Below are positions 15,366 to 25,676 of a stretch of 58,550 nucleotides of DNA, piece after piece. Source of the stretch: Oscillibacter sp. ER4 (GTDB taxonomy: Bacteria > Bacillota > Clostridia > Oscillospirales > Oscillospiraceae); contig NZ_JPJG01000008.1 of the NCBI RefSeq assembly GCF_000765235.1, forward strand, positions 1 to 58,550, read 5' to 3'. The translations under genes and the position numbers were made by a program. The notes beneath the pieces are model-generated. The model was not told the origin of the DNA. It was given only the letters and a program-made list of their open reading frames with translations, and searched no databases. Position 1 is the stretch's first letter, and every line of letters starts with the position of its first letter.

Positions 15366-17462
15366 TTACACGGAGAAGAGTAATTCGCAGAACGTCGGAT
15401 ACGGCCAATACTTGGACGCGGTCAGCACTTCCAGCTTGTCGACGGTCTTGCGCACGTCGTTCGTGCGCTTTTCGACCTCGTCGTGGTAGTAGCGCAGGAG
15501 CTTTTCGGGCTCGGCGTCGTCGGAGACGGTCTCAAGCGCTGTCTTGAGGCCGATGGTCTCTTCGAGCAGCTGCTCGTTGAGCGAGCCGATGGCGTTGGCG
15601 AGCGAGGATTCGACGTGGCAGGTCAGCTCCGGCGCGGCGGCGCGCTTGGCGGCGATGGTGTTGCACAGCGCGGCTTCGTATTCGGAAGCGGCGTTGAGAA
15701 TGCCGTGCTGGACCATGTCAACAAGCGTCGCGGCCTCGATGCGGATGACCTTGCAGTACTTCTCGATATGAACTTCGTGGCGGGAGAAAATTTCTTCCTT
15801 GCTGTAAACGCCCTGGCGCGTCAGCAGCTCAATGTTCTTGGGCAGGATGTAGGTCGGCAGCGCCTCGGCGGTGTTGTGCAGGTTGGCAAGGCCGCGCTTT
15901 TCGGCTTCCTTGATCCAGGCCTCTTCATAGCCGTTGCCGTTGAAGATGATGCGGCGGTGGGCGGAGAACGTGTCGCGGATCAGCTTGTGGAGCGCGGCGG
16001 TGAAGTCCGGCGCGTCCTTGAGCTGCGCGTAGAATTCGTCGAGCTCTTCGGCCATGATGGTGTTGAGAATCGTGACCGGGCCCGCGATGGACTGCGAGGA
16101 GCCGGGCATGCGGAACTCAAACTTATTGCCGGTGAAGGCGACGGGCGAGGTTCGGTTGCGGTCGGTCGTATCCTGCGGGATGGCGGGGAGCACGTCCACG
16201 CCGATGCGCAGGGACTTGTGCTCGGGCGCGGTGTAGTCGTTTTCGTCGACGATGGCATCGATGATGCCCTCAAGCTCGGTGCCGAGGAAGACGGAGATGA
16301 CAGCCGGGGGCGCTTCCTGCGCGCCGAGACGGTGATCGTTGCCCGCGAAGGCAACGGAGCAGCGCAGAAGCTCCTGATACTCATCCACGCCCTTGATGAA
16401 CGCGGCGAGCACCAGCAGGAACACGGCGTTCTGGCTCGGCGTCTTGCCGGGGGAGAAGAGGTTTTTGCCAGTGTCGGTCGAGAGCGACCAGTTAACGTGT
16501 TTGCCCGAGCCGTTGACGCCCGCGAAGGGCTTTTCGTGCAGCAGGCACACAAGGTTGTGGCGCTCGGCAACCTTTTTCATCGTCTCCATGACGAGCTGGT
16601 TCTGGTCGCTCGCGGTGTTGGCGTCGGTGTAGATGGGGGCCATCTCGTGCTGGCCGGGGGCGACCTCGTTGTGCTTGGTCTTGGAGAGCACGCCGAGCTT
16701 CCACAGCTCTTCATCGAGCTCTTTCATGTAGGCGGCCACGCGGGGACGGAACGCGCCGAAGTAGTGGTCGTCCAACTCCTGACCTTTCGGGGGCTTTGCG
16801 CCGAACAGGGCGCGGCCGCACAGGCGCAGGTCCATGCGCTTTAAGTACAGCTCGCGGTCGATGAGGAAATACTCCTGCTCCGCGCCGATCTGCGGCGTGA
16901 CCTTTTCCGCGTCGTCGCCAAATAACTTGAGCACGCGCACCGCCGCGCGGTCGACCGCGGCCATGGAGCGCAGCAGCGGCGTCTTCTTGTCGAGCGCGTC
17001 GCCGCTGTAGGAGCAGAACACCGTCGGGATGCAAAGGCTGCCATCTTTGATGAAGGCAAACGCCGTGGGGTCCCAAGCGCTGTAGCCGCGGGCTTCAAAC
17101 GTGGCGCGCAGGCCGCCGTTGGGGAAGGAGGACGCGTCGGGCTCGCCACGCACCAGCTCCTTGCCGGAAAAGTCCATCATCACGCGGCCGCCGCCGGCGT
17201 TGTTGATAAAGCTGTCGTGCTTTTCCGCCGTCACGCCGCTCAAGGGCTGGAACCAGTGCGTGAAATGCGTTGCGCCATGCTCCAGCGCCCAGGTCTTCAT
17301 CGCGTCGGCAATCTCATTTGCCGCGGAAAGGGGAAGAGGCTGCCCGCTCTTTAAGCAGCCGCGCCAAACGTCCATGGCGCTCTGCGGCACATACTGCTCC
17401 ATTGTGCGTTCATTGAACACCAGAGAGCCAAAAAGCTCGGGAATGCGAGTCGCTTCACTCAT
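15366..17462 (-). CDS. glnN: Glutamine synthetase type III
   Basis: This protein of 698 residues has the large GSIII size, much longer than GlnA type I (about 450). The start is ATG 17462 behind GGAGGTC; more upstream codons are open but lie before the ribosome site and promoter. GSIII hallmarks include THWFQPLSG, IGAEQEYFLID, KTKHNEVAPGQHEMAPIY, GVNGSGKHVNWS and PGSSQSIAGP. It assimilates ammonium into glutamine. It has its own promoter and terminator, so it is probably monocistronic. Confidence 0.96.
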   Translation of the reverse strand: MSEATRIPELFGSLVFNERTMEQYVPQSAMDVWRGCLKSGQPLPLSAANEIADAMKTWALEHGATHFTHWFQPLSGVTAEKHDSFINNAGGGRVMMDFSGKELVRGEPDASSFPNGGLRATFEARGYSAWDPTAFAFIKDGSLCIPTVFCSYSGDALDKKTPLLRSMAAVDRAAVRVLKLFGDDAEKVTPQIGAEQEYFLIDRELYLKRMDLRLCGRALFGAKPPKGQELDDHYFGAFRPRVAAYMKELDEELWKLGVLSKTKHNEVAPGQHEMAPIYTDANTASDQNQLVMETMKKVAERHNLVCLLHEKPFAGVNGSGKHVNWSLSTDTGKNLFSPGKTPSQNAVFLLVLAAFIKGVDEYQELLRCSVAFAGNDHRLGAQEAPPAVISVFLGTELEGIIDAIVDENDYTAPEHKSLRIGVDVLPAIPQDTTDRNRTSPVAFTGNKFEFRMPGSSQSIAGPVTILNTIMAEELDEFYAQLKDAPDFTAALHKLIRDTFSAHRRIIFNGNGYEEAWIKEAEKRGLANLHNTAEALPTYILPKNIELLTRQGVYSKEEIFSRHEVHIEKYCKVIRIEAATLVDMVQHGILNAASEYEAALCNTIAAKRAAAPELTCHVESSLANAIGSLNEQLLEETIGLKTALETVSDDAEPEKLLRYYHDEVEKRTNDVRKTVDKLEVLTASKYWPYPTFCELLFSV

Positions 17463-17503
17463 GATCCAGACCTCCTGTTTCGAAATAAAAAATTTGATAA
17501 GTA

Positions 17504-17533
17504 ATGATACTTCATCGGGGCAAGCAGCGTCAA
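17504..17533 (-). promoter_or_regulatory. glnN promoter
   Basis: TTGACG, 18 bp, TATCAT on the minus strand. A near-palindrome CTCACTTTAGTGAG (17558-17571) sits just upstream of the -35 box and could bind a regulator, but this is only a pattern. Confidence 0.6.
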
Positions 17534-17618
17534 TACTTTGTTTTTCCAACTTTCCCCTCACTTTAGTGAGACGGGATGTGCGGTGTGAACGAAATTATGA
17601 AAGTGCGGCAACTTTTTC

Positions 17619-17700
17619 TTGCATGAAGAAAACGGCTGTGCTATATTTAGCCTGAACCCTCCCTTGCCGGAAACGGCAGGGGAGGGCGTTTTGTTTTTCT
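17619..17700 (+). ncRNA. Promoter-terminator pair giving a short RNA of about 45 nt
   Basis: TTGCAT (17619-17624), 17 bp, TATATT (17642-17647) is followed about 10 bases later by a 13-bp stem (17657-17669/17674-17686, GAAA loop) and a T-run to 17697. No open frame is enclosed. The unit lies in the otherwise gene-free 17463-17781 interval and points away from glnN, toward the 3' end of the DHHW gene. Whether it is transcribed is unknown. Confidence 0.45.
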
Positions 17701-17781: not shown

Positions 17782-18882
17782 TCACTTGATCGTGGCGCTG
17801 TCGTTCAGCACGCTCGTGCTGTAAAGAAACAGCACGTCCTGCGCGGTAAAGTCGATGAATTTTCCGAGCATTGAGGGGGAGAGGTAGCGGATGTCGGCAA
17901 GCGTAATCTCGCTGTACCCCTCCGCAAGCAGCGGAAGCAAACTCGCGGCAAACGAATCGCGGAAGACAAGGAGCTTTCGCTCCGCCTGCGCGTTCGGGTT
18001 CTCAATGCGCAGCAGCGACTTGGGTCCCGAGAGGAAAATTTCATACGGGTCGCTGCCGTCTGCCTTTTCGAGCGTGTAGACAGGGAGATAGGCACCGCTT
18101 TCATAGTCGTACACGCGGCAGCTACCAATGATATCGTTTGTGAGGTAGGCGAGCCTGTCGGGCTCCATCGGCAGTGCCGACTGCCCGCGGTACACACCGT
18201 AAAACGGCGTATCGAGCGTGACCTCGGTAAAGTCCACGGTGAGTGAGACGCCCATCGCATCTGCCAGCGCCTTGGCCGTGGGGGCAAGCATTTCCTGCCG
18301 CCAGTGGAGGTCGGTGCGGTAATAGGATGAGAGCGACAGCGTGCCCGTCAGGTCGATATAGTCCGCAAAATCGACCTTTTCCCGCATGAGCGCCAAGAAC
18401 TTCTCGTAATCCATCGCGGGATAGCCGTTTTCGGCGGCCAAAAAGTAATTCTTGTCGGGGATGACGGAGAGGTAGACGTTTACGCCCGTATCTTTGAGAT
18501 ACGTTTCGTACACGTAGCGGAAGCGGTCGGCCGCGTGGTCGAGCGAATCCTCGTGGATCGTGTCGTCGAGCTTCGCGGCGTAGCCGTCCTCAACGTAGAT
18601 GCCGTTGTTGTCCTTCTCGCCAAATAAATCGCGGACGGACAGCGCCTTGAGCGTGCGGAGCTCGTCGCGCAGCGGGAACTGGTCGAGCGTGTAGCTCTCA
18701 AAGTTCGACTGGAAGCGCCCGGAGAGCACTTCTTTCACGCTGAGCGTCGGGAACTGCTTGAGCGGGCGGCGCTCGCTTTCCGACACGGCGTCGTCGCTCT
18801 TGCAAATGCTCCACAGCGTGAACATAAGCACGAACGCTGCCGCGATGCCGAGGGTGAGGGTGTCTTTGATTTTTCGATTCAT
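17782..18882 (-). CDS. DHHW-family protein (AlgJ-like partner of an MBOAT O-acyltransferase)
   Basis: This 366-residue protein has one N-terminal membrane segment (LGIAAAFVLMFTLWSI) and a long extracytoplasmic domain. The family motif is seen as YRTDLHWR, with LLVFRDSFAASLLP supplying the SGNH-like Ser block. DHHW and AlgJ-type proteins work with MBOAT transferases in O-acylating cell-surface polymers. The MBOAT gene lies only 12 bp upstream, which supports that pairing. It is the last gene of the ECF-sigma operon. The acceptor polymer is not identifiable. Confidence 0.85.
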   Translation of the reverse strand: MNRKIKDTLTLGIAAAFVLMFTLWSICKSDDAVSESERRPLKQFPTLSVKEVLSGRFQSNFESYTLDQFPLRDELRTLKALSVRDLFGEKDNNGIYVEDGYAAKLDDTIHEDSLDHAADRFRYVYETYLKDTGVNVYLSVIPDKNYFLAAENGYPAMDYEKFLALMREKVDFADYIDLTGTLSLSSYYRTDLHWRQEMLAPTAKALADAMGVSLTVDFTEVTLDTPFYGVYRGQSALPMEPDRLAYLTNDIIGSCRVYDYESGAYLPVYTLEKADGSDPYEIFLSGPKSLLRIENPNAQAERKLLVFRDSFAASLLPLLAEGYSEITLADIRYLSPSMLGKFIDFTAQDVLFLYSTSVLNDSATIK

Positions 18883-18894
18883 GCGATGCCCTCC

Positions 18895-20295
18895 TTAAAA
18901 GCGGAAGTAGAGGAACGGGTTGAACGACCCATCCACTAAAAATGCCGTGCCGAGCAGCAGAGGAATCAGTACAAACAGCGGTTCGAGCACATCGAGCGCC
19001 GTCGCTGCGCCTTTGGATTTGCGCAGCTTTGCGACGATCATCTTCGGCAGCGGTGTTGCGCAGAGGATACCGAGCACGAGCAGCGGGCCATAGCTTTTAA
19101 GATAGTAGACCGCCTGTGCGCTCGATAGCGGCAGACCGCCTGCACCAAACATCGCGCCGATGCGCGAGACTGCCTGCGCGGCGCTGTCTGCGTCGAAAAG
19201 CACGAAGCCGAGCGTGACGAAAAAGAGCGTGTACACATGGCCGAGCACGCGGTGCTTCTGCAGGACCGGTAGCAGAAGGAGCTTCTCAAGAAGCAACAAA
19301 ATTGCGAACCACAGTCCCCAGAGAACAAATGTCCACGCGGCGCCATGCCACAGGCCCGTTGCAAGCCAGACAATCAGAATGTTCAACAGCTGACGCGCCT
19401 TGCCCTTCCGGCTGCCGCCGAGAGGGATATAGAGGTAGTCGCGGAACCACGAGCCAAGCGACATGTGCCACCTGCGCCAGAACTCCGTGATGCTCGCTGA
19501 AATATAGGGGTAGTTGAAGTTTTCAGGGAATTGGAAGCCCAGCATCCGCCCGAGGCCGATGGCCATGTCACTGTAACCCGAAAAGTCGAAGTACACCTGG
19601 AGCAGAAACGCGAGCGCGTAGAGCCAGACGAAGAGGACGCTCGCGTCCTGCGTCGACTTGTAGGCGCTCGCGAGCGCGCCGAACTGGTTGGCGAGCAGAA
19701 TTTTCTTGGCAAAGCCGACCGTGAAGCGGCGCACGCCCTCCGCCGCGGCGGAGACACTGTGCGTGCGGCTTTTGAGCTCCGCGGCGACGTCGGAATAGCG
19801 CACGATCGGCCCCGCGATGAGCTGGGGGAAGAGCGAAACATAAGTGGCCAGGTCGATAAAATTTCGCTGCGCCGCCGTCTCGCTGCGGTAGACGTCGATG
19901 ACGTAGCTCAATACCTGAAAGGTGTAGAAGCTGATGCCGATGGGCAGGCTCAGCTTCAAAAGCGGCAGGGAGAGCCCTGTGACGGCGTTGACGCTGGAGA
20001 GAAAAAAGTCCGCGTACTTAAAATAGCCGAGAAGCCCAAGGCTCACAAGGATCGAGAGCGTCAGAAAGACCTTCGACGCCTTTTGCCCGCGGTGCTTTTC
20101 AATCAGCAGGCCGAAACCATAGCCCTGCACGATGGAGACGAGCATAAGCAGCATATATTTCGGCTCGCCCCAGGCATAGAAAAAGAGGCTTGCGAGCAGC
20201 AGCACCGCGTTTTTCAGCTGCCGCGGCGCTGCAAAGTAGATCAGCAGCGCCGCAGGCAGAAAGTAAAAGAGAAAGGGAACGCTGGAAAAGAGCAT
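18895..20295 (-). CDS. MBOAT-family O-acyltransferase (AlgI/DltB type)
   Basis: This 466-residue polytopic membrane protein has many hydrophobic helices and MBOAT signatures: ITEFWRRWHMSLGSWFRDYL, YIPLGGSRKG, and the catalytic-His region GLWHGAAWTF. These enzymes move acyl groups across the membrane for transfer to surface polymers such as polysaccharide, peptidoglycan or teichoic acid. It is preceded by a lipoprotein gene (28-bp gap) and followed by a DHHW partner. Its place behind an ECF sigma/anti-sigma pair suggests envelope-stress-induced acylation. Confidence 0.93.
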   Translation of the reverse strand: MLFSSVPFLFYFLPAALLIYFAAPRQLKNAVLLLASLFFYAWGEPKYMLLMLVSIVQGYGFGLLIEKHRGQKASKVFLTLSILVSLGLLGYFKYADFFLSSVNAVTGLSLPLLKLSLPIGISFYTFQVLSYVIDVYRSETAAQRNFIDLATYVSLFPQLIAGPIVRYSDVAAELKSRTHSVSAAAEGVRRFTVGFAKKILLANQFGALASAYKSTQDASVLFVWLYALAFLLQVYFDFSGYSDMAIGLGRMLGFQFPENFNYPYISASITEFWRRWHMSLGSWFRDYLYIPLGGSRKGKARQLLNILIVWLATGLWHGAAWTFVLWGLWFAILLLLEKLLLLPVLQKHRVLGHVYTLFFVTLGFVLFDADSAAQAVSRIGAMFGAGGLPLSSAQAVYYLKSYGPLLVLGILCATPLPKMIVAKLRKSKGAATALDVLEPLFVLIPLLLGTAFLVDGSFNPFLYFRF

Positions 20296-20323
20296 AAACT
20301 TCTCCGCCTTTCAGAAGATCAAA

Positions 20324-20896
20324 TCAGGCGATGGCCTCGTCGCAGGCGACGGCAGCATCGGCAAAGGCCTCGGTGACCTTTTCGCTGAACTGGTCGACAA
20401 GGTCCTCCGCGCCGTAGCAGGAGATGACATAGTCGCCGAGCGTCAGGATGACGAGTTTGTCGGGGAAGCCGCACATCCACTGGCGGGACATGACGTTGTC
20501 CTTGAGGTCGGAGACGACACTGTCAACGTCGGAAGAGCTCGCAACATGGAACGCGCCCGCGGTGAAGGTGTTGGCGTTCATCATGTGAGTGAGGGACGCG
20601 GCGTCGGAGAGCTTGCCTGCGTCCGCGGCGGGGAAGGAGAGAGAGTAGTCAAGTGCGTCGCCGTCTTCGACGGAGAAGTTGCCGGGCGCGTCCTCGGTCA
20701 TATTCGCCTCATCATAGTCGCCGCCGGCAGCAGGGAACTTGTCGTCGTCGCTGTAGTTGGCCCATACGGCGTTCAGCAGCTCGAGAGCGCTCGCGGGCTG
20801 GCTGTTATTGCCACTATTGTCGTCCGTCTTGCTGCCGCAGGCGGCGAGGGAGAGAGTCATCGCTGCGGCCAGCAGCAGGGTGAGAAACTTTTTCAT
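20324..20896 (-). CDS. Lipoprotein of unknown function in ECF/MBOAT operon
   Basis: This 190-residue protein has a clean lipoprotein signal (LLLAAAMTLSLAAC, Cys at about residue 20). An Asp/Ser-rich linker leads to a soluble domain containing MNANTFTAGAFHV and LVILTLGDYVISCYG. Its size and the 'YVISCYG' C-terminal strand recall DUF4358-type lipoproteins often found beside MBOAT genes, but that match is from memory. GGAGGT precedes the start. It may sense or present the acylation substrate; this is a guess. Confidence 0.7.
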   Translation of the reverse strand: MKKFLTLLLAAAMTLSLAACGSKTDDNSGNNSQPASALELLNAVWANYSDDDKFPAAGGDYDEANMTEDAPGNFSVEDGDALDYSLSFPAADAGKLSDAASLTHMMNANTFTAGAFHVASSSDVDSVVSDLKDNVMSRQWMCGFPDKLVILTLGDYVISCYGAEDLVDQFSEKVTEAFADAAVACDEAIA

Positions 20897-20951
20897 GGGA
20901 ATTTACCTCCAAAATGTTGTGTGTTGTCAATAGTAATGTGGAATGGGATGC

Positions 20952-21485
20952 TTACGCCCGCGCGGCGGCCCAATAGCCGTTGGCCTCGTCGTAGCGCAGC
21001 GTGACGGCGGGCGCGCCGTCGAGAGAGAGCGTGTAAACCATACCCGTGTCCGGCTCTTCGATGGTCCAGCAAAGCTGCACCTTGCCGGAGACGGTGTAGG
21101 AGGTGAACTCCTCCTGCAGCGAGTAAAGAGGCTGGGTCAGCACGCCATCCGACACCGTAACGGTCACGGCCTCGCCCGATTTGCTCTCGATGGTGAGCAT
21201 CGGACTGAGCGGGCCGCTCAGACTGCCGCGCGCGTCGAGCGCCATCGCTGCGGGCTGACTGATGGGAATGGGGATTGAGGAGAGCGCTGCGCCTTCGACC
21301 TTGATCTCAGCCGGTAAGGTGTCGCGCGTCATCGCCAGGGCGGCGGCCAGCACGAGCGCAAGGCACGCCGCAGCGGCAAGAAAACGCGGGAGGGCGTACC
21401 GTTTGCGCGGCTTGTAGGCGTAGGCGTCCGCGATGAGCTCATCGTCGAGCTCGCCTATGGCGCGGGTCAGAACTTCATGCTTCAC
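20952..21485 (-). CDS. Probable anti-sigma factor, single-pass membrane protein
   Basis: This 177-residue protein has a cytoplasmic N-terminal segment with LTRAIGELDDELIADAY, then Arg/Lys-rich sequence and one transmembrane helix (LAAAACLALVLAAALAM), then an outside beta-rich domain. This is the layout of anti-sigma factors paired with ECF sigma factors. It overlaps the sigma gene by 11 bases, showing tight translational coupling. No HxxxCxxC zinc motif is seen, so it is not a ZAS-type anti-sigma. The outside domain would receive the envelope signal. Confidence 0.75.
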   Translation of the reverse strand: MKHEVLTRAIGELDDELIADAYAYKPRKRYALPRFLAAAACLALVLAAALAMTRDTLPAEIKVEGAALSSIPIPISQPAAMALDARGSLSGPLSPMLTIESKSGEAVTVTVSDGVLTQPLYSLQEEFTSYTVSGKVQLCWTIEEPDTGMVYTLSLDGAPAVTLRYDEANGYWAAARA

Positions 21486-22038
21486 AGTATCCCTCCTTGA
21501 TGAGATGCTCCTTGAGCTTTCTGCGCGTGCGCAGGAGCGTGGTTTTGATGCGGCTCTCGCCGCAGTGAAAGCGCGCGGCCAGCGCTTCGACCGGTTCGCA
21601 GTAGAAATAGCGCAGGATGAACATGCTGCGCACCTCTTCGCTCTGCGTGCGCAGAAACGCGCTGATGCTGCGGCCGAGCTCTGCTGCCATGGCCCCGTCG
21701 TCGGGCGAGGACAGGGCGGGTGCGCAGTCGTCCAGCTCGTCGAGCGAGAGCGCGAAGACGTCGCCCTGCCGCTTCTGCGCCGACCTCGCCTTATAGCGGT
21801 TCAGCGCCAGATTGCGCGCGATCTTGCCGAGAAAGGCAGACAGGATCGCAGGCCTTTGCGGCGGCATGGCCTGCCAGGCGTGTAAGTACGTGTCGTTGAC
21901 GTTTTCTTCACTGTCGGCGCGGTCGGATAAAATGTTTTGCGAAATTTTCATGCAATAGCTTTCGTATTTGGCGGCGGTGGCTTCGATGGCGTGCTCGTCC
22001 CGCTGCCAGTAGAGGTCGACGATCTCATGGTCGTCCAT
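21475..22038 (-). CDS. ECF-type RNA polymerase sigma factor
   Basis: This 187-residue protein has sigma region 2 (DSEENVNDTYLHAWQAMPP, then FLGKIARNLALNRYKA) and region 4 (VRSMFILRYFYCEPVEALAARFHCGESRIKTTLLRTRRKL). It lacks regions 1 and 3, as ECF factors do. It starts at 22038 behind AAAGGAG. It heads an operon with an anti-sigma, a lipoprotein, an MBOAT transferase and a DHHW protein. Two upstream motifs, one SigA-like and one ECF-like, suggest basal plus self-activated transcription. Confidence 0.93.
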   Translation of the reverse strand: MDDHEIVDLYWQRDEHAIEATAAKYESYCMKISQNILSDRADSEENVNDTYLHAWQAMPPQRPAILSAFLGKIARNLALNRYKARSAQKRQGDVFALSLDELDDCAPALSSPDDGAMAAELGRSISAFLRTQSEEVRSMFILRYFYCEPVEALAARFHCGESRIKTTLLRTRRKLKEHLIKEGYCEA

Positions 22039-22076
22039 AGGCTCGCTCCTTTCTGTTGTCTGCCATCATGGGGAAA

Positions 22077-22104
22077 AGACAACTTTTTTGCCGTTTGCGT
22101 TACA
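22077..22104 (-). promoter_or_regulatory. Candidate ECF-type autoregulatory promoter
   Basis: TGTAAC (-35) and TTGTCT (-10) on the minus strand, with 18 bases between AAC and GTC, about 40 bp before the sigma start codon. It resembles the AAC...GTC motif in front of the divergent serpin gene. Confidence 0.5.
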
Positions 22105-22126
22105 CAAAAGAGAAAATATTTTTGAA

Positions 22127-22154
22127 AGTATACCACATTCGCCCGTTTCGTAAA
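22127..22154 (-). promoter_or_regulatory. Possible SigA promoter of the ECF operon
   Basis: TTTACG, 16 bp, TATACT on the minus strand, upstream of the ECF-type motif. It could supply basal sigma factor. Confidence 0.4.
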
Positions 22155-22181
22155 AGGGCGGCATGCTATTTTTGACAAAAC

Positions 22182-22209
22182 GGGAACTTTTTTCCATCCG
22201 CGCCGTCTA
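22182..22209 (+). promoter_or_regulatory. ECF-type promoter of serpin gene
   Basis: GGGAAC (-35), 16 bp, CGTC (-10), with the start codon about 35 bp downstream. The AAC/CGTC layout is typical of Gram-positive ECF factors, and no good SigA promoter is present at a workable distance. Confidence 0.6.
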
Positions 22210-22243
22210 ATATAACAAATCCCGAAACGGAGGTACATCCGAC

Positions 22244-23716
22244 ATGAAACGATTCTTAACGCTGCTGCTCGCCGCGGCGATGGTCCTGTCCTTCGCCGCC
22301 TGCGGAGACAACGGAACGACGATCCGAAATGAAAAAGAGGAGGACAATGTGAAAAAAGACCCCATTGCCGCGCAGTATTTGCAGGACCTCGCCGTGAAGA
22401 CGGCGGACTATCCCGTGCTGCCCGCCATGCCGAACGAGAGTGAGCTTGACGAGGCATTCAGCACCATCGACTATGACAAGATGGGCGCGGACGCCTATGA
22501 AAAGGCGCAGGAGAAGATCTGGGAGGACTGGGACGCGCGCAGCAATGCCTATTACGATGCGCTCAAGGCGCTGCGCAGCAAGGGCACGAGCTACCCCGCG
22601 GCATTCCTGCACTTCACACAGGAGACGGGCACGCTGCTTTCGGCGGAGGAGAACACCGTTCTCTCGTCCGCAAACCTGTATCTCGCCTTTGCGATGCTCA
22701 GCGAGACGACGGACGGCGACAGCCGCGCGCAGCTTTTATCGCTCTTAGGCCTTGAAAATACCGACGCGTCGCGCGCTGCGGGCAACTATGTCTGGCGCAA
22801 TCTCTACGGCGAGACCTCGACGGGAAAGACGCTGCTCGGCAGCTCCGTGTGGCTGAATGAGAACGTCCCTTATAATGAAGAGACGCTGCAGGTGCTCGCC
22901 GAGCAGTACCTTGCTTCGACGTTCTCCGCCCCGATGGGAGATGAGAAGACGGACAAGGCCATCGGCGAATGGATCAATGAGAACACGGGCAATCTCTTGC
23001 AGGACGCGGCGGGTGAGATCCAGACGAAGCCCGAGACCGTGATGCTCCTTTTGACGACGCTCTATTTTAAGGACCAGTGGCGCGACGAATTCTGGAAGGA
23101 TGCGACGAAGAAGGACACGTTCACCGCGGCAGGCGGCGAAAAGCAGAACGCCCAGTTCATGCATCGCACGGACGACCGCGCCGCGTACTATCGCGGCGAG
23201 AACTACACCGTGGCGGAGCTCGGCTTCCGCGGCGGGCAGTCGATGCGCTTTTTGCTGCCGGATGAGGGGACGACGCTCGAGAGCCTGCTTGCCAATGGTG
23301 AGGTCGTGGGCGGACTGATGGCCTACGACATGGACGCTGCGCTGCCGAGTGCGGAGATCCACTGGAGCGTGCCGAAGTTCGACGTGGATTCCAACCTGGA
23401 GCTGACCGACGCGCTCAAGGCGATGGGCGTCACGGATGTGTTCGACTTCAACAAGGCGGACTTCTCGCCCCTCGTCGACAAAGAGAAGTTTGACGAGAGC
23501 GTCGCTGTGACGCAGGTGCAGCACGCCGCGCGCGTCAAGGTGGACGAAAAGGGCTGCGAGGCCGCGGCGTTCACGACTATCACGGCGGACGCCGCATCTG
23601 CCATGCCCGAGGAACTTCCGGTGGTGGAGATGAATTTGAACCGGCCGTTTGCTTTCATGATCACCGGCGTGGACGGTCTGCCGCTCTTCCTCGGCACGGT
23701 GAATACATTGAAGTGA
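22244..23716 (+). CDS. Serpin-family protease inhibitor, lipoprotein
   Basis: This 490-residue protein has a lipoprotein signal (LLLAAAMVLSFAAC). After a charged linker of about 100 residues comes a full serpin domain: SSANLYLAFAMLSE, SSVWLNENVPYNEE, LLLTTLYFKDQW, PKFDVDSNLELTDALKAMG and the C-terminal NRPFAFMI. The hinge reads EKGCEAAAFTT, close to the inhibitory consensus with small residues at P12-P10. Counting from P17 places P1-P1' at Ala-Ser, which would suit an elastase-like target. It is therefore probably a surface-anchored suicide inhibitor. Its ECF-type promoter links it to the divergent sigma factor. Confidence 0.92.
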   Translation: MKRFLTLLLAAAMVLSFAACGDNGTTIRNEKEEDNVKKDPIAAQYLQDLAVKTADYPVLPAMPNESELDEAFSTIDYDKMGADAYEKAQEKIWEDWDARSNAYYDALKALRSKGTSYPAAFLHFTQETGTLLSAEENTVLSSANLYLAFAMLSETTDGDSRAQLLSLLGLENTDASRAAGNYVWRNLYGETSTGKTLLGSSVWLNENVPYNEETLQVLAEQYLASTFSAPMGDEKTDKAIGEWINENTGNLLQDAAGEIQTKPETVMLLLTTLYFKDQWRDEFWKDATKKDTFTAAGGEKQNAQFMHRTDDRAAYYRGENYTVAELGFRGGQSMRFLLPDEGTTLESLLANGEVVGGLMAYDMDAALPSAEIHWSVPKFDVDSNLELTDALKAMGVTDVFDFNKADFSPLVDKEKFDESVAVTQVQHAARVKVDEKGCEAAAFTTITADAASAMPEELPVVEMNLNRPFAFMITGVDGLPLFLGTVNTLK

Positions 23717-24444: not shown

Positions 24445-25404
24445 TCAGGCGGAACGCCGAAGCTGTTTGGCAGAACGGTAGGAGTGAGAGCCGTGCAGAA
24501 CGGCGGCCAGCGCAACCGCTAAAGCGGAGATATGAGCCAGCGTATTGAGGTTTGCCACATTGTTTCCGTTACGCACCCATAATCGTTCCTGCCCAGACGC
24601 CTTAAAGCGGGAGTTGTATCTTTCACACTCTGTACGCAAGGCATAGATACGCTTAAAACGCAGGCATTCCCTGTCAATGGAAAGTCTGTAGTCTGTTGGA
24701 ATGGTCTTATACTTGGTACAACCCTGGTTTTTCTTCCCATTGTTCCAGTTTTTGTGGTTGCAGGGGCAAACGCTGGTTTTGGACTGGCGGAAGGGGCAGC
24801 AGTATTTCTGCCGAATCCCCCCTCTGCCATCGGTGGTCTTGCCATCTTTGTGCATGGCCAGTCCGGCCTCGCAGATTGGATTACCGGCAGAAATTGCTTC
24901 AGAGGTTTTCGTACTGCGTGGATTGAGGGGGATAAAAGTTTCCCCATCATAGACCGTTTTCACGGTGTTGTAGATGCTTTTCACATCGTAGCCCTTGTCG
25001 GCAAGGAAGGTGTATTCTTTCAAAGAAACCGTCTGATTCGCAGCTGCGAGGATATCAGCGGCGACGGAGGAATCGGCGACATTGCCCGGTGTGGTCAGCT
25101 CGTAGAGCGGCAGGCCGGAGATGCAGTCCACCAGCACATGACTTTTGTAGCCCCAGTAGAACTCATACCGGCGCTCATTGTGCTGGTTGGAGGCCGAGTG
25201 GACGCCGAGGGCGCAGTCCGGATCGCTTTTCGGGTGGTTTTCCTTGGAGAACTTGTTCTTTGCAAAGGATTTTGGATTGTTCTGCTTCGTGTTTGCCATG
25301 ACGGGCGTGGAATCCAGGCCAATAAATGAGGCGTCCACGATCCCCATCTCATAGAGTTTCTTCACCTGTGCCGCCATGATTTCTTTCAATGCAGCGTTAT
25401 CCAT
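24445..25404 (-). CDS. DDE transposase, catalytic part (second frame)
   Basis: This 319-residue part starts at ATG 25404 inside the frame overlap. It carries the likely catalytic acidic residues in FIGLDSTPVMANT, TFLADKGYDVKS and LRTECERYNSRFKASG, plus a Cys-rich insert (SVCPCNHKNW). It lacks the N-terminal DNA-binding region, which is encoded by the preceding frame. Full enzyme would need a -1 shift at the CTCAAAAAATGG overlap. Without it only a truncated protein is made. Confidence 0.85.
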   Translation of the reverse strand: MDNAALKEIMAAQVKKLYEMGIVDASFIGLDSTPVMANTKQNNPKSFAKNKFSKENHPKSDPDCALGVHSASNQHNERRYEFYWGYKSHVLVDCISGLPLYELTTPGNVADSSVAADILAAANQTVSLKEYTFLADKGYDVKSIYNTVKTVYDGETFIPLNPRSTKTSEAISAGNPICEAGLAMHKDGKTTDGRGGIRQKYCCPFRQSKTSVCPCNHKNWNNGKKNQGCTKYKTIPTDYRLSIDRECLRFKRIYALRTECERYNSRFKASGQERLWVRNGNNVANLNTLAHISALAVALAAVLHGSHSYRSAKQLRRSA

Positions 25405-25676
25405 TTTTTGAGGAAACGGTCATACGTCCAGTAGGACGGCAGCGGCTCCATGATATTGAACCCGCAGTAGTGGGCAATGAGCCGGTTGTTGTCTAGATAA
25501 TCCGCCAAATCTGTGATTTGTGAGAAGCCCTCGCATTTCATAACGATAAAAGCACAGACCATGGCTTCTTTGGGGAAGCCCCGCCGCCCGGTTGCCGCCC
25601 TGGGCAGCGTGAAGTAAAGACTGCTGAAAAGCTTGTCGTAGAACGCAGCGGCGCTTTGGGATGTAAACAATGTCAC
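25386..25676 (-). CDS. Transposase N-terminal part (first frame)
   Basis: Ninety-six residues from a GTG at 25676; the frame is open further upstream (IYRQEIIQDV), so the true start may be earlier at a non-ATG codon. It reads FPKEAMVCAFIVMKCEGFSQ and ends in PSYWTYDRFLKKWITLH at a stop just past the A6 run. This matches the DNA-binding N-terminus of IS transposases, whose frame continues in the overlapping gene. It is either the first half of a frameshifted product or a broken gene. Confidence 0.75.
   Translation of the reverse strand: MTLFTSQSAAAFYDKLFSSLYFTLPRAATGRRGFPKEAMVCAFIVMKCEGFSQITDLADYLDNNRLIAHYCGFNIMEPLPSYWTYDRFLKKWITLH

Follow-up and report, generated by a model that had tools for sequence, protein, structure and literature searches.

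Predicted control of a serpin lipoprotein and an O-acylation cassette of Oscillibacter sp. ER4 by two different ECF sigma factors, and candidate serpin-bearing anti-sigma factors in related bacteria

The window analysed here is the whole 58,550 nt stretch of contig NZ_JPJG01000008.1 of Oscillibacter sp. ER4. Between positions 17782 and 23716 it carries five minus-strand genes, encoding an extracytoplasmic function (ECF) sigma factor, an anti-sigma-like membrane protein, a lipoprotein, an MBOAT O-acyltransferase and a DHHW protein, which are divergent from a plus-strand gene for a serpin lipoprotein. This set was recognised in a preliminary description of the DNA and is confirmed: all six reading frames are open and correctly placed, and four of the six products match their families above curated cut-offs. 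Judged from the sequence, the serpin and the polymer-decorating genes are probably both under stress sigma factors, and under two different ones. The features of the locus, by position in the window, are:

17782..18882, minus strand: DHHW protein (Pfam PF14286, 44.4 bits, cut-off 25; D-L-H-W in the translation)
18895..20295, minus strand: MBOAT O-acyltransferase of 466 aa with a W-H-G motif (Pfam PF03062, 106 bits)
20324..20896, minus strand: lipoprotein of no named family, kept with MBOAT and DHHW in the congeners G154 and G209 (53-54%)
20952..21485, minus strand: membrane protein resembling an anti-sigma factor (a short N-terminal stretch, then a helix through the membrane near residue 35, then a small outer portion)
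21475..22038, minus strand: ECF sigma factor of the group with G[CT]AAC-type upstream sites (TIGR02937, 58.8 bits, cut-off 42.9)
22103-22077, minus strand: GTAAC-N18-GTCT, candidate autoregulatory promoter of the ECF operon (from the pattern and the upstream sites of relatives)
22154-22127, minus strand: sigma-70-like site TTTACG-16-TATACT, its -10 preceded by TG, in front of the ECF gene (from the consensus match alone)
22183..22208, plus strand: candidate serpin promoter of the GGAAC-N16-CGTCT class, GGAAC-N16-CGTCTAA
22244..23716, plus strand: serpin lipoprotein of 490 aa (Pfam PF00079, 219 bits)

The ECF and anti-sigma-like genes overlap, the next gaps are 55, 28 and 12 bases, and one strand is kept throughout, so that the genes from ECF to DHHW are likely to be on a single transcript. 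The sigma factor also matches Sigma70_r2 (PF04542, 28.7 bits, cut-off 24) and falls just short for PF08281 (25.4 against 25.7), which places it among the ECF factors; its best relatives are about 53% identical and are found in other genera. The first 70 aa of the anti-sigma-like protein are 38% identical to the ECF partner in locus L038; no Pfam family was found in it at E 0.1, and it does not qualify as having an RsiV-type anti-sigma domain. The lipoprotein has no Pfam family over the cut-off, and its congener copy has none even at E 1. Against the DltB model TIGR04091 the MBOAT protein scores 160.7 bits, below the cut-off of 375, and is not classed as DltB (D-alanylation of teichoic acid). 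The DHHW protein, with its DLHW motif, is probably an extracytoplasmic, SGNH-like partner of the MBOAT protein.

The serpin is the sole one found in the ER4 genome, and its signal peptide (22244-22306) is nearly identical to that of the lipoprotein (20324-20896), with 86% over 21 residues. In an alignment of 145 rows, also used for the serpin tree and excluding rows with two serpin domains or fewer than 300 residues, its hinge reads EKGCEAAAFT, with Gly at P15 and Ala from P12 to P10, the P-site numbering following alpha-1-antitrypsin. The Cys at P14 and Phe at P9 are less usual; with a serpin domain and small residues through most of P15-P9, the protein is predicted to be of the inhibitory type, with a predicted P1-P1' of Ala-Ser, which would point to targets of the elastase kind. 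The nearest solved serpins are tengpin and conserpin.

A GGAAC-N16/17-CGTC sequence is found shortly before the start codon of seven of the eight serpins in six genomes of the genus. Its distribution in the family was followed in a census, made by profile searches, of 152 unique serpins, drawn from the matches listed and from neighbouring serpins in the same loci, without duplicates and without fragments that have under 150 residues after the domain begins; family serpin counts given below refer to these listed matches. Ninety of the serpins were labelled as lipoproteins, and 89 of them (lipobox-bearing, with 100 or more bases of upstream sequence and a start codon within range) could be scored. 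The motif precedes 60 of the 89; a shuffled control (100 rounds, with dinucleotide frequencies preserved on average) gave a mean of 0.07 and never more than 1. It precedes only 2 of 462 non-serpin open reading frames (ORFs) chosen by length from the same loci. A second sample of named genomes, partly overlapping the first, gives 15 of 26 lipoprotein serpins. The putative serpin promoter is a feature of the family and not peculiar to the ER4 locus. In at least one of the six genus genomes the motif also precedes genes for VanW, LytR-CpsA-Psr (LCP), SH3, phosphodiester glycosidase (NAGPA) and DUF4349 proteins, and pattern totals over the six genomes are 31, against 12 for the reversed control.

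A second ECF factor, of about 203 residues, was found by a sigma region 2 search in all six genus genomes, and it is present in 233 of 300 family genomes. Upstream of it lies a common reading frame, which Pfam assigns to the Dus family in G000, and the factor is referred to here as the dusB-linked ECF. Downstream, with a 4-base overlap in five of the six genus genomes, lies the gene for a membrane protein; in G000 this is a zf-HC2 protein (PF13490, 37.5 bits, cut-off 22.2), that is, a zinc-finger anti-sigma factor directly behind its sigma gene. The top NCBIfam match of the dusB-linked ECF (L260:2762-3373) is SigW (NF007223), at 154.4 bits and below the cut-off of 209, so it is SigW-like and not classed as SigW itself. 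In all six genus genomes GGAAC-N16/17-CGTC occurs in the last codons of this ECF gene, before the anti-sigma gene, and it does so in every one of the 30 top-scoring family loci, among which are these six. The promoter-like sites (L260:3306 and loci L275-L303) are positioned to feed the factor's own anti-sigma gene. The sequence between GGAAC and CGTC varies freely, and one locus has the motif in a different frame with its two elements 17 bases apart; this speaks for constraint at the DNA level. The dusB-linked ECF is present in the genomes of 59 of 60 motif-bearing serpins and of 21 of 29 motif-less ones (Fisher p 4e-4, relatedness ignored). In Escherichia coli, sigma-E recognises GGAACTT; region 4 of that factor is presumably closer to the GTVKSRISRGR of the dusB-linked ECF than to the ESRIKTTLLRTR of the ECF at the locus. 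The likely reader of the GGAAC/CGTC class is, on this evidence, the SigW-like, dusB-linked ECF.

The locus ECF appears to use a different kind of site. G[CT]AAC-N15-19-GTC occurs upstream of 16 of its 63 relatives, 13 of them among the 30 with at least 48% identity, and AAC-N16-CGTC occurs in 10 of the 63 upstream regions (shuffle mean 0.68). Neither GGAAC-N16/17-CGTC nor GGAAC-N15-19-GTC occurs in any of the 63. The candidate promoter upstream of the ER4 gene, GTAAC-N18-GTCT, would allow autoregulation; as a pattern it is weak alone, since GTAACN{17,18}GTCT occurs four times in the genome, once ahead of the ECF gene, and the reversed control 49 times. The likeness of the two AAC...GTC motifs, pointed out in the preliminary description, is real as far as AAC and GTC are common to both, and ends there: the rest of the -35 element differs, and by sequence the site of the locus ECF is of another -35 class than the serpin promoter.

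Comparison of gene order shows the arrangement to be unique to ER4 among the six genus genomes. A divergent ECF of the locus group within 1.5 kb was found for one of the 152 serpins, that of ER4. No relative of the locus ECF occurs in six congener serpin loci that were fetched, and no sigma-70 region 2 was found, among the matches listed, within 15 kb of six congener serpins or of two congener cassettes. The idea that serpin and ECF form a conserved neighbourhood was rejected: four of five congeners have a serpin close to a methyltransferase gene and clpC, with no such ECF there.

The O-acylation genes are kept elsewhere in the genus. The closest congener MBOAT genes, those of G209 (64%) and G154 (63%), occur with DHHW (60% and 59%) and lipoprotein genes (54% and 53%), and in both genomes a GGAACCTTTTT-...-CGTCTAT sequence stands directly before the lipoprotein gene. 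Cassette and serpin are unlinked there, and both lie behind GGAAC-CGTC promoters. In ER4, the 1.5 kb preceding the MBOAT gene holds no GGAAC-CGTC site, even when one mismatch is allowed, and the ECF pair is present instead. As the congeners have GGAAC-CGTC where ER4 has the ECF pair, the cassette seems, from these sequences, to have switched from one sigma factor to a second ECF. The common promoter class in the two congeners is the main support for a combined response of O-acylation and serpin, as had been suggested; such a coupling may hold as membership of one ECF-type regulon, and would probably run through a different, unlinked sigma factor and not through the neighbouring one.

The account favoured here, with reasonable confidence, is that the locus consists of two separately controlled units placed back-to-back, the serpin being controlled through the dusB-linked ECF and the cassette through the locus ECF. 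The genes, the promoter classes, their conservation and the promoter-like site inside the dusB-linked ECF gene are the observations behind it; the pairing of sigma factors with promoters, the protease inhibition, the O-acylation and the stress signal are its predicted parts. The serpin gene would be read from GGAAC-N16-CGTCTAA by the SigW-like ECF encoded behind dusB elsewhere in the genome. A zinc-finger anti-sigma factor would hold that ECF until envelope stress frees it, serpin levels would rise, and the serpin would trap serine proteases at the cell surface. The locus ECF (21475-22038), held by its membrane partner, would read its own GTAAC-N18-GTCT promoter and thereby transcribe the lipoprotein-MBOAT-DHHW cassette, which would O-acylate a surface polymer. 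Because the cassettes of two congeners lie behind GGAAC-CGTC, serpin and cassette may belong to one envelope-defence programme, the cassette having been placed under a second sigma in the ER4 genome.

Several points weigh against this account. The assignment of sigma factors to promoters rests on co-conservation, and both promoter classes hold AAC and GTC, so that cross-reading between them is possible. The GGAAC-CGTC stretch in the ECF gene is also protein-coding, and the loci inspected for it were the best 30 of 233 genomes, the closest ones. One motif-bearing serpin belongs to a genome (G166) where the dusB-linked ECF was not found at E 1e-30. The eighth serpin of the genus (the third of G253, with an S-layer-type N-terminus by eye) is without the motif, as are 29 of the 89 lipoprotein serpins, 21 of these from genomes with the dusB-linked ECF. 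In the order's other families the motif precedes only 2 of 20 lipoprotein serpins. G154 has no more pattern hits than control hits (4 and 4), and of the nine hits in G000 three or more fall within long ORFs.

Chance adjacency, in which the ECF-anti-sigma pair moved before the cassette beside the serpin and left two functionally unlinked units, is a possible but doubtful explanation. It fits the congener loci inspected, where neither serpin nor cassette has an ECF beside it. It also fits the IS1182-like transposase gene on the other side of the serpin (24445-25404, minus strand, with an extra piece at 25386-25676, minus strand; 73.6 bits, below the cut-off of 270), which is a possible cause of rearrangement at the locus. 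The membership of both units in one promoter class in two congeners, though unlinked, speaks against it. Distinctly improbable is the original proposal, in which the neighbouring ECF would act in both directions from the intergenic region and so activate the serpin gene along with its own O-acylation operon: adjacency, the divergent layout, AAC and GTC at both sites with 17 and 18 bases between them and GTCT within both -10 elements agree with it, whereas the same serpin promoter occurs in congeners that have no such neighbour, the 63 upstream regions from relatives of this ECF show G[CT]AAC sites in 16 and GGAAC-N15-19-GTC in none, the arrangement is found with a single serpin of the census, and it is the other ECF, present in all six genus genomes, that has GGAAC-CGTC before its own anti-sigma gene. 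The observation of the gene set was thus right and the coupling idea partly right at the level of the regulon, while the regulator proposed was probably the wrong one.

The census also brought out a second relationship between serpins and ECF factors. Thirty of the 152 serpins lie directly behind an ECF of the locus group (27 genomes and 18 genera, hand-counted). In these proteins the serpin follows a membrane helix, which is itself preceded by some 30 residues, and 16 of the 30 genes overlap the ECF gene by exactly 4 bases. Another eight serpins are encoded up to 1.6 kb downstream of an ECF of this group; for six of them a separate partner was seen in the interval. A profile built from the N-termini of 36 ECF partners without serpin matches all 30 of these serpin-bearing proteins (type 1), none of the 90 lipoprotein serpins and 5 of the remaining 31, namely two tandem copies and three of a second type. 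With the helix removed, the profile still matches 27 of 30, 0 of 90 and 1 of 31, and reversed sequences give one hit among all. Adjacency to the ECF, a partner-like N-terminus and a membrane helix are found together in 30 of 30.

The second type occurs in five further loci (L141, L128, L168, L170 and L178), where another ECF precedes a serpin-carrying membrane protein whose N-terminus has YK[RK]AN; since three of these match the profile of the first type, the two ECF/N-terminus types are perhaps distantly related. Serpins of either type make up 40 of 87 in the named genomes (30 and 10), a sample closest to the query and so biased, and two serpins from other families of the order belong to one of the two types. 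Tandem serpins stand behind one ECF in L068, L156 and L178, and in L068 and L156 an anti-sigma-like N-terminus is present on the second copy as well. Serpins joined to S-layer homology sequences occur as well, at L086:3433-7236 (two serpin domains) and L025:199-2562, both with Pfam SLH; S-layer repeats were recognised by eye alone in L127, L123, L124, L130 and L415.

Aligned type-1 serpins have Glu at P17 and Gly at P15 in 32 of 32 and Ala at P11 and at P10 in 31 of 32, with mostly Val or Cys at P14, and the keeping of the hinge residues at P17, P15, P11 and P10 makes them look inhibitory. Type 1 requires nine changes on the serpin tree, at least six of them on well-supported branches, suggesting that serpins have repeatedly moved between anti-sigma and lipoprotein roles. 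An origin of the ER4 serpin from a broken serpin-bearing anti-sigma factor was considered and rejected, as its five nearest tree rows are congener lipoproteins; the wider set of 55 rows around it comprises 26 fused type 1, 6 fused type 2, 21 lipoprotein and 2 other serpins. Use of GGAAC-CGTC by the ECFs of serpin-bearing loci was likewise rejected, because 30 of the 63 upstream regions without the motif come from such loci. TGTAAGA- or TGTCACA-like and CGTCTAT-like strings were seen there by eye.

On these sequences the serpin-bearing proteins are candidate protease-trap anti-sigma factors. It is rather unlikely that they are mere anchored inhibitors, co-transcribed with an ECF and with an N-terminus that does not bind sigma: the N-terminal module is only about 30 residues long before the helix and shows no recurrent Pfam family, as that reading would have it, and yet a profile made from serpin-less partners separates all type-1 proteins from the lipoprotein serpins, and does so nearly as well with the helix left out. 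Somewhat favoured is the reading as anti-sigma factors, in which an inhibitory-type serpin in many Oscillospiraceae would be the outer sensory domain of a membrane anti-sigma; a protease attacking the reactive loop would be trapped, the large refolding of the serpin would mark the protein for cleavage and the ECF would be set free, while elsewhere, as in ER4, the same serpin lineage would be an ECF-controlled effector. If this is true, the cell would detect proteases through their attack on it.

On the far side of the O-acylation operon, downstream of the DHHW gene, lies a gene for a type III glutamine synthetase (15366-17561, minus strand), with a terminator-like hairpin nearby (17657-17686, plus strand).

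The closest known counterpart of the ER4 operon is sigV-rsiV-oatA of Bacillus subtilis, a lysozyme response in which RsiV is anti-sigma factor, receptor and inhibitor of lysozyme (PMC5014341). Each operon combines an ECF gene with genes for a membrane anti-sigma (a predicted one in ER4) and for surface O-acylation, and autoregulation, a feature of the B. subtilis operon, is putative in ER4; RsiV senses and inhibits one enzyme, the logic proposed here for the serpin-bearing anti-sigmas (PMC5014341). The analogy drawn earlier with ECF-driven O-acetylation against lysozyme is fair in layout, but the protein families differ (PMC5014341). ER4 has MBOAT and DHHW proteins in place of an OatA-type acyltransferase, its anti-sigma-like partner has no Pfam family, and the protease inhibitor is a separately encoded serpin.

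The dusB-linked ECF resembles SigW/RsiW-type systems in its best-matching model, its zf-HC2 partner and its presumed envelope-gene targets. It differs from them in scoring below the SigW cut-off, in a presumed -35 of GGAAC, in presumed targets that include serpins and in the promoter-like site for the anti-sigma gene inside the ECF gene. The SigI/RsgI systems of cellulolytic clostridia use a different sigma family. They are similar to the serpin-bearing proteins in having anti-sigmas with exchangeable outer sensory domains; the domains named in the portions of the sources consulted sense carbohydrates and are not serpins (PMC3413522, PMC12484212, PMC3990059). Siropins of Eubacterium siraeum are gut Firmicute serpins tested on human elastase and proteinase 3, and neither sigma-factor control nor an anti-sigma fusion turned up in a search of that text (PMC5127057). 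In the open-licence literature searched, preprints being outside its scope, no serpin under ECF control, no serpin anti-sigma and no regulator of serpins in gut Firmicutes was found.

The regular presence of serpins in an ECF regulon, and the finding that a fifth of the counted serpins are outer domains of probable anti-sigmas, make both observations worth following. The GGAAC-CGTC promoter class offers a testable answer to how serpins may be regulated across a large part of one gut-bacterial family. The serpin-bearing anti-sigmas, for their part, would represent a candidate bacterial protease sensor that acts by suicide trapping, in parallel to RsiV.

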